Shown here: piece after piece, positions 1 through 4,935 of the stretch | How positions within the stretch are numbered: position 1 is the stretch's first letter | Layout: every line of letters starts with the position of its first letter | Virus record (IMG/VR): IMGVR_UViG_3300025832_000077 | Span: 1 to 22,042 of that record | From: a virus | Length of the DNA: 22,042 nt | Direction: 5' to 3' (one strand) | The notes under the pieces: model-generated | Told to the model about the DNA's origin: nothing | The model's input: only the letters and a program-made list of their open reading frames with translations | Databases searched by the model: none | Translations under genes and position numbers: made by a program

Positions 1-151
1 AGGTACTGATGGTTTTATAGCTTACTGTCATGGGAACATGATTAAGTATCAACATAGGTATAGGTACAAAGCTAATCCTGTAGAGGATATGAAGAAAGCT
101 GAATGGTATCTTAAGCGTATGAATGAAGCATTATCGGAGAAACATAAATGA
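1..151 (+). CDS. DUF3310-type protein, C-terminal part (5' end outside window)
   Basis: An open plus-strand frame enters from the left edge and ends at a TGA at 149-151, giving 49 visible residues. The segment YCHGNMIKYQHRY followed by NPVEDMKKAEWYLKRM matches the core of the DUF3310 (SaV-like) family, whose members carry a C-x-GN-x-IKY...ED-x-KKA-x-WYL signature. These proteins are common in the early or replication modules of phages. They are sometimes labelled nucleotide kinase, but their function is not established. The N-terminal part lies outside the window. The stop overlaps the start of the next gene (ATGA), so the two are probably translated together. The plus strand puts it in a different, converging transcription unit from the late genes. 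Confidence 0.75.
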   Translation, partial: GTDGFIAYCHGNMIKYQHRYRYKANPVEDMKKAEWYLKRMNEALSEKHK

Positions 152-288
152 CAATAAACGAAGGAATACTGCTAGGCAATCTAGCTTTATCTACTTACTT
201 AGTGTGGATCATATCTAAGCTAAATCAAGATATAAAAACTCTATTCGAAGGTCTTGCAATTACGATGGATGCAGTAGGTGTTAAATAG
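148..288 (+). CDS. Small single-pass membrane protein, 46 aa
   Basis: The frame starts with ATG at 148, overlapping the previous stop (ATGA), and ends with TAG at 286-288. A GGAGA about 8 nt before the ATG serves as ribosome binding site. The product has one hydrophobic helix (about residues 7-25, from ILLGNLALSTYLVWII) and a short polar tail containing KLNQDIKTLFEGL, which could form an amphipathic helix. No family is recognised. Small proteins of this shape are frequent in phage early regions, where they may act on the host membrane or simply be uncharacterised. The tight coupling with the DUF3310 gene and the good ribosome binding site are the reasons to call it real. It is the last plus-strand gene before the convergent terminator. 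Confidence 0.6.
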   Translation: MTINEGILLGNLALSTYLVWIISKLNQDIKTLFEGLAITMDAVGVK

Positions 289-290
289 CC

Positions 291-365
291 CCTGAGAGGG
301 AAATTAAGCGTGGTGTGACAGAGGTTAGAGCTTTTGATAGGCTAACCTACCTGAGAGGGAATTAA
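291..365. repeat. Pair of direct repeats (CCTGAGAGGGA...ATTAA)
   Basis: CCTGAGAGGGA followed by ATTAA occurs at 291-307 (with one extra A) and again at 350-365, 59 bases apart, in the gap between the two converging gene sets. The first copy can also be read as a tiny hairpin, CCCT-GAG-AGGG, at 290-300. The second copy lies inside the nested inverted-repeat element described separately. No coding frame explains the identity. The role is unknown; a protein-binding site or an RNA element are both possible. Confidence 0.6.
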
Positions 366-379
366 TAGGTTCACACCAC
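310..379. other. Nested inverted repeats, candidate structured RNA (three-way junction)
   Basis: Three helices can be drawn in 70 bases. P1 is GTGGTGTGA (310-318) with TCACACCAC (371-379), 9 perfect pairs. P2 is AGGTTAG (322-328) with CTAACCT (342-348), 7 perfect pairs. P3 is ACCT (349-352) with AGGT (367-370), 4 pairs. P2, P3 and the 3' side of P1 abut with no unpaired bases, and only CAG (319-321) separates P1 from P2. The element lies after the stop of the plus-strand gene at 288 and before the bidirectional terminator. It does not fit a tRNA: there is no D arm, no anticodon loop and no TPsiC loop. It could act as RNA on either strand or as a DNA binding site. No known RNA family was recognised. 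Confidence 0.4.
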
Positions 380-393
380 AAGTATAGAATCAA

Positions 394-440: not shown

Positions 441-956
441 TTACTCTTCAATCATGTTGAGAGCTTGTTCTAATGTTTCTTTATTGCGCCGTGACCATCC
501 ACGACCAAAGTGTTTGTAATCATCTAGACCTTCATAGAAGCCTTGACGTACTGTGTATACATAATCAATTATAAACTTGGGATCTTTCTCCATTATAAGA
601 CCTAACGTCTGTGGTCCTATAGCTCCATCAGGTGTCGCTCCTACTGCACGTTGTACAGCTTTAGCAGGTCTACCACTTCCCGAATTCACAGCCCAGTCGA
701 AACAGCTCCAGTCTAAGCCCGATGGAAGTGAATCTCCTTTAACTCGATTCCAGTAGTTCTTCTTATAGATAGGAGCTACATCATCTGGAGTTAAGTCTCT
801 CATTTCTTGTTCAGTAGACTCTCTGCCAATCCAATCGTCGTATACTCTCTTAGTTACACCTAAATTAGTCATCCCCCCAGAATCGCGGCTATCATTTACG
901 TAGCCCCCTTCGTGTTCCAATAACATATGTAGACATTTATCAAAGTTGTTCTGCAT
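441..956 (-). CDS. Endolysin: GH108 family lysozyme (N-acetylmuramidase)
   Basis: This 171-residue protein would cut the glycan strands of peptidoglycan at the end of infection. The N-terminus carries EHEGGYVND and DSGGMTNLGVT (residues 14-35), the signature of the GH108 lysozyme family (EGGY...D-GG-T-x-G). E16 in EGGY is the expected catalytic acid. The C-terminal part, with WAVNSGSGRPAKAVQRAVG and PDGAIGPQT (about 89-118), matches the predicted peptidoglycan-binding domain that follows GH108. The length is normal for the family. There is no signal peptide or N-terminal membrane anchor, so release depends on a holin. The holin gene ends 2 bp upstream, and this is the last gene of the late operon, followed at once by the terminator. 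Confidence 0.93.
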   Translation of the reverse strand: MQNNFDKCLHMLLEHEGGYVNDSRDSGGMTNLGVTKRVYDDWIGRESTEQEMRDLTPDDVAPIYKKNYWNRVKGDSLPSGLDWSCFDWAVNSGSGRPAKAVQRAVGATPDGAIGPQTLGLIMEKDPKFIIDYVYTVRQGFYEGLDDYKHFGRGWSRRNKETLEQALNMIEE

Positions 957-4454: not shown

Positions 4455-4935
4455 CGAACATCCTCTCGATTACATTGTTTTGGTCACGCTCTATTGCTTC
4501 TTCAACTGCTTCCATTTCCCATGCTAGTCTAGCTTTATCGCCTACCAACCCATCCTTGGGACAGGGAGTTCCAGCATTGAGCATGGCTTCAAACACTCTT
4601 TCGTCCTGACACATTACAGATACAGCCGCAACTTTCATGCCCATATCGTACATAGTCTTAGCGTTCTTTAACTTCTCACAGTTCATATCCCTTACTGTAC
4701 GACCAGCAGAGATACCTAGTATTTGTGTTTGTACAGCACCTGCTACACCTACAGTACATAAGTCAGAGTTACTTGCACTTATCTGTGGTGATATAGCAGA
4801 AGGTGGTGGACTATTAATCGTCGTGTCCATTGATCCATCAGAAGTTATTGTACTATTACTGTCGGTGTAAATCGTATCGTCAGCATATACAGTACTACCA
4901 ATTATCAGGGTAAGTAGTATAAGTAAGTGTTTCAT
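4384..4935 (-). CDS. Secreted/membrane-tethered Cys-rich protein, 183 aa
   Basis: A Sec signal peptide (MKHLLILLTLIIGSTVYA, cleaved before DDTIY) is followed by a Ser/Thr/Pro-rich stretch. A conserved-looking domain (about 58-140) has four cysteines: SDLCTVG, RDMNCEKL, VMCQDERVFEAML and GTPCPKDG. The last residues, IGLGVIFSSLAFLLLL, form a C-terminal membrane segment, so the protein could be anchored in the inner membrane and face the periplasm. The pattern MxVKVAA...MCQD...AGTPCP is one I associate with phage proteins of unknown function. Four cysteines in an exported domain suggest two disulfides. The gene begins in an ATGA overlap with the small coiled-coil membrane protein gene and is the first of the five exported products. 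Confidence 0.75.
   Translation of the reverse strand: MKHLLILLTLIIGSTVYADDTIYTDSNSTITSDGSMDTTINSPPPSAISPQISASNSDLCTVGVAGAVQTQILGISAGRTVRDMNCEKLKNAKTMYDMGMKVAAVSVMCQDERVFEAMLNAGTPCPKDGLVGDKARLAWEMEAVEEAIERDQNNVIERMFDENGETKIGLGVIFSSLAFLLLL

Follow-up and report, generated by a model that had tools for sequence, protein, structure and literature searches.

An optional 79-bp module before a shared terminator in a CRP-6-related marine phage, tentatively read as a 3'-UTR hairpin

Between the final genes of two converging transcription units of a marine phage lies a short stretch of nested repeats, which raises the question what this stretch is and on which nucleic acid it acts, if it acts at all. 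The window that was analyzed is a whole IMG/VR virus record, linear and 22,042 bases long. Most of its genes read leftward, among which those for the major head protein, tail proteins and an endolysin. A rightward unit ends within the first 288 bases, which contain the C-terminus of a protein with matches to PHROG 'nucleotide kinase' families and, as the final gene of this unit, a 46-aa ORF (148-288, plus strand). The endolysin gene (PHROG 315; 441-956, minus strand) is the final gene of the minus-strand unit. Both units converge on a terminator-like hairpin at 394-433, which from its inverted repeat (394-410/417-433) and its folds appears to be bidirectional and common to the two units; a consensus terminator scanner did not include it in its list. 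With 80% identity in the major head protein, the window resembles Roseobacter phage CRP-6, which belongs to the RCA lineage and to a group that its published description calls ubiquitous in the ocean (PMC6918029). The convergent junction of CRP-6 (MK613348.1) is similarly built, with a similar small ORF in the same place, convergent units and a terminator-like hairpin directly after, while the gene opposite resembles window gene 959-1315. The repeated stretch itself is lacking in CRP-6, where 54 bp separate the ends of the two genes.

Comparison with relatives showed that the inverted repeats are part of a 79-bp module (TTAAGCG...CACAAG, plus strand), which is a real but optional piece at one exact point. 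The filled and empty sites among relatives, together with its absence from CRP-6, fix the insert at exactly 304-382 or, equally, 305-383. The junction set comprised 44 IMG/VR contigs, the window included, obtained from endolysin relatives and two pattern scans. Of 185 relatives brought up by the endolysin, 80 were retained; two endolysin relatives (L026 and L040) end before the junction and the other remaining ones have different surroundings. The module was present in 30 of the 44 junction contigs, which read GGAAA[module]TATAGAATC. Ten contigs have the clean empty site GGAAA|TATAGAATC, with GGAAATATAGAATC in place of the module and GGAAA kept in all. The other four have a different insert or none: in L250, L253 and L255, whose slot sequences are identical, a 50-aa ORF (MSKFSIATEVNG...) fills the slot before the same terminator, and in L254 the small ORF's stop codon immediately precedes AATCAAAAAAGCC. 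The 50-aa ORF was also seen to overlap the end of the small ORF. The closest natural pair, L022 with and L020 without the module, is 97.3% identical over 150 bases to the left and 1000 bases to the right. Carriers and non-carriers are intermixed on both flank trees, one built from 42 of 44 rows and the other from 35 of 40, and the module was therefore gained, lost or exchanged by recombination several times. The earlier note had singled out the stretch 289-380; its presence or absence as an insert lay beyond that note's view.

The module occurs in one copy per contig and at this site only, as judged from the IMG/VR contigs, a covariance model and pattern scans. Among viral contigs, a 14-base left-end pattern was found in 105 stretches, a pattern of both ends in 82, those outside this locus being unrelated, and an internal pattern in 25, every one in a contig carrying this locus. 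A profile search of 182 loci returned the module at this locus only, plus three weak partial matches (E 0.06 to 2), and a covariance model run over 62 loci and 18 whole records placed it nowhere but at this site. The internal exact pattern had one match in 84,980 species genomes, by chance in unrelated sequence, and a pattern scan of plasmids gave 0 module matches, exact-pattern scans being prone to overlook diverged copies. Named phages gave nothing for the module beyond a 22-nt match at E 3, and literature searches brought up nothing on the module. In line with the novelty claimed in the earlier note, no Rfam family covers it: there were 0 matches at the gathering score in the whole window, and at E up to 10 the region 140-460 gave just terminator-like and chance matches. 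No Rfam family and no counterpart in named phages or plasmids was found; as a class, hairpins that are optionally present ahead of a phage terminator are nothing unusual.

The repeats reported earlier are all present in the window. The left arm of the outer inverted repeat, GTGGTGTGA (310-318), is 100% complementary to the right arm, TCACACCAC (371-379), across a gap of 52 bp, and the inner 7-bp arm AGGTTAG (322-328) is equally complementary to its partner CTAACCT (342-348). The 12-bp direct repeat CCTGAGAGGGAA has an inner copy at 350-361 and an outer copy 59 bp upstream, at 291-302, which lies in the variable spacer after the ORF and outside the insert. All these elements were read on the plus strand. 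Taken alone, the 9-bp inverted repeat is unremarkable; with gaps of up to 60, the window holds 8 such repeats against 6.0 +/- 2.5 in shuffles. CCTGAGAGGGA, at one mismatch at most, occurs twice in the window while 0.2 occurrences are expected. The compact three-way junction that had been described is indeed the minimum-energy fold of the module in the window, with AGGTTAG/CTAACCT as helix 2 and a third helix (ACCTG/TAGGT) of 5 bp instead of the 4 bp claimed. On either strand, the predicted folding of the 80-nt stretch 305-384 surpasses that of all 200 shuffles (z -3.98 and -3.75). In a scan of the contig, noisy with its 40 shuffles per stretch, this stretch ranked 11th on the plus and 4th on the minus strand, and the stretch 301-380 ranked third among 1100 plus-strand windows, after two that contain the terminator. 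The module is itself not an intrinsic terminator, in agreement with the earlier note: its stem is followed by AAGTATAGAATC on the plus strand, and it is the hairpin at 394-433 that carries a T run, a separate structure with an inverted repeat distinct from those of the module.

Whether these structures are maintained was analyzed in 20 distinct module sequences. For the three-way fold, none of 21 pairs had a change on both sides, and 93.1% of cells were paired compared to 93.3% in shuffles. Helix 2 is broken in up to 8 and helix 3 in up to 7 of the 20 sequences at single pairs, so that the inner repeat is not conserved as a helix. The consensus fold of the alignment is one long hairpin with many G-U pairs. 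Given a complete outer stem, it pairs 96.5% of cells, but also shows 0 compensatory changes, and shuffles score equally high, which leaves the long hairpin short of a proven RNA structure. Folded singly, 10 of the 20 sequences form the long hairpin, while the complete three-way form appears in 7 and another structure in 3. The three-way junction was thus rejected as a conserved RNA, since it lacks compensatory pairs, has broken helices and is passed over for the long hairpin by half of the relatives; the covariation by which it was to be judged did not appear, though the sequence itself is conserved. Half of the carriers (15 of 30) have the outer repeat in perfect 9-bp form, and its pair 312/377 is mismatched in 7 of the 20 sequences, from either side. 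On the other hand, folding is predicted to be stable in all 20 (-16.6 to -27.9 kcal/mol), and in each of them the fold of the plus strand is stronger than that of the minus strand.

The direct repeat fared no better as a meaningful feature. It is exact in 8 of 30 carriers. The inner copy reads CCTGCGAGGGAA or CCTGAGAGAGAA in many relatives, and the outer copy reads CCCCACAGTGGAAA, CCCCTACAGTGGAAA, CCCCTCAGATGGAAA or otherwise in some carriers, CCCCACAGTGGAAA-type sequence taking its place in several carriers and in all 10 empty sites. A paired binding site is therefore weakly supported, and the outer copy was perhaps made secondarily by copying of the inner one. The spacer after the small ORF (288-303 in the window, and its counterparts in relatives) varies strongly and in many cases is palindromic (CCCCACAGTGG, CCCCTACAGTGG, CCCCTGTAGTGG, CCCCTGAGAGGG), and its TACA/TGTA resembles the inversion of a loop. 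The same TAGACCCCTACA spacer was found with the module (L011) and without it (L077).

Sequence diversity was compared in 24 haplotypes, taken from the 29 of 30 carriers in which both genes are readable, after removal of duplicates. Diversity of the module is 0.085, while that of four-fold sites is 0.271 in the endolysin gene and 0.167 in the 46-aa ORF; the terminator has a diversity of 0.030. Variable sites make up 24 of 77 positions in the module and 29 of 42 four-fold sites in the endolysin gene. In the small ORF, the diversity of codon positions 1 and 2 is high (0.060), a value that may include divergent or shifted rows. Within the module the arms vary less than the inside (0.065 vs 0.096), and two motifs, TGTGACAG in columns 10-17 and TCACAC in columns 67-72, are invariant in all 20 distinct sequences. 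The slow change of the module fits purifying selection, but recent spread would look alike, and the low diversity may stem from such a spread by recombination rather than from selection.

The reading that is tentatively preferred, at somewhat less than an even chance, is that the module forms a hairpin in the 3'-UTR of the plus-strand mRNA, where it would block decay or serve as a processing site. We infer from the sequence that the module is transcribed, on which strand, and that it affects the mRNA. The module lies after the stop of the final plus-strand ORF and upstream of the shared terminator, as the earlier note had it when placing the repeats in the 3' region of the plus-strand unit. 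Because both units share this terminator, minus-strand transcripts should stop before the module and plus-strand transcripts should include it. Of the small RNA, 3' regulatory element and DNA site offered by the earlier note, this placement ahead of a shared bidirectional terminator favours an element of the plus-strand 3'-UTR, and hence the hairpin reading. In the mechanism proposed for this CRP-6-related marine phage, the module would sit in the 3' untranslated tail just before the terminator shared with the endolysin unit, the 9-bp base would close a long hairpin rich in G-U pairs or, as in the window, a three-way junction, and the hairpin would block 3'-to-5' decay or offer a processing site to a double-strand-specific nuclease. 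RNase III sites and REP-type stabilisers are 3'-UTR hairpins of this sort that protect or process mRNA. Like structured 3'-UTR hairpins of phage and bacterial mRNAs, the module combines a stable predicted hairpin with a place after the final gene of a unit and before the terminator; it differs in being optional among close relatives and free of compensatory changes. The stable predicted fold in all 20 distinct relatives, stronger on the plus strand, the change slower than at four-fold sites and the presence of another structured element at the corresponding place in sister phages (see below) argue for the 3'-UTR reading. Against it stand the lack of covariation in either structure, with the mismatched outer pair, and the 14 of 44 contigs that do without the module.

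Because the module is optional and shows no covariation, an insertion that is neutral or selfish follows closely, at a somewhat lower probability. The module would then be a small mobile palindrome of the REP or MITE type, or a chance insert, harmless and moved by homologous recombination. REP and MITE-like elements are short palindromic intergenic insertions, and the module resembles them in being short, palindromic, intergenic and present or absent at a precise point, with 30 filled and 10 clean empty sites among the 44 contigs. The intact flanks of pairs such as L022 and L020, the mixing of carriers and non-carriers on both flank trees and the differing slot contents of these phages (module, 50-aa ORF or nothing) also agree with such an insertion. 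However, REP and MITE-like elements occur in many copies at different sites, whereas the module has one copy and one site, its target duplication is no more than 1 bp, and nothing beyond the single chance match was found in the species genomes and plasmids searched. The change slower than at four-fold sites also speaks against a neutral insert. If neutral, the module is another optional intergenic insert. If functional, it would be an exchangeable 3'-end RNA element in relatives of the widespread CRP-6-type roseophages, and the natural near-identical phage pairs with and without it would permit a direct test of the role of a 3'-UTR hairpin during infection. These presence/absence pairs, together with the parallel element of sister phages, are more useful results than the module as a kind.

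The remaining explanations are weaker than both the 3'-UTR hairpin and the neutral insertion. A small regulatory RNA of about 80-130 nt, cut from the 3' end of the mRNA or made from its own promoter and ending at the terminator, is improbable. A hairpin followed by a terminator is the usual build of 3'-UTR-derived sRNAs, and module and terminator fold as a single strong stretch (z -5.6 on the plus strand), but no promoter-like plus-strand site was found upstream of the module (the two strands of 1-1400 together gave 5 sites vs 3.6 expected), there is no Rfam match, and the module is missing from 14 of the 44 contigs. Less probable again is a protein-binding DNA site built on the inverted repeat, at which a protein of the phage or its host would act in replication, recombination or repression. 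The two invariant motifs and the slower change of the arms would suit it; the 52-bp gap between the arms, the single copy, the contigs in which the site is dispensable and the stronger pairing as plus-strand than as minus-strand RNA speak against it. A decayed gene or tRNA is very improbable, despite the 50-aa ORF in the slot of L250, L253 and L255 and a module length and GGTTAGAGC / GGTTCACACC motifs that presumably resemble a tRNA, since comparison by eye with the 50-aa ORF of L250 showed no resemblance and neither ARAGORN nor cmscan, the latter at E up to 10, found a tRNA, tmRNA or tRNA-like remnant, which bears out the earlier statement that the module is not a tRNA.

Sister marine phages, among them L042, L048, L050, L052, L057, L059, L074 and L257-L283, carry another structured element in the same slot, found in 28 IMG/VR contigs. 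It consists of GGAGAGCAG...CTGCTCTCC around a core AAGTCATCTCAAGGATGTCTAG, followed by a GTTAC/GTAAC hairpin, and in L057 occupies 4590-4680 on the minus strand. It shares with the module the slot, a 9-bp outer stem and the lack of an Rfam match above chance; it differs in its unrelated sequence, its invariant core and one compensatory pair. No match was found in named phages, and the covariance model of the window's module has no match at these loci. The core is invariant in 14 aligned sequences, partly due to query choice, as these were chosen from the 28 contigs found by the core itself. In the same 14 sequences, one pair of the 9-bp stem, outside the core, is A-U in 8, U-A in 5 and unpaired in 1, which is one pair and possibly a single event. 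As a candidate structured RNA, the sister element is perhaps more promising than the module of the window. It is conceivable, though quite unlikely, that in a large group of marine phages the slot serves for the exchange of structured RNA cassettes, where the 79-bp module, the GGAGAGCAG element, small ORFs or nothing alternate, each being a different 3'-end regulator traded by recombination. By eye, the upstream frame seems to run into the sister element in some phages and to stop before it in others.

A further family was noticed in unrelated contigs (L185, L186, L188, L191, L194, L205, L215, L222 and L232). It reads GTGTGACAG or GTGTGACAA, followed after about 61-62 nt by CAGTTCACACCAC, has a TATACT/TAGGAT-like box, is present in two copies in L191 and looks like a repeated promoter or operator family.
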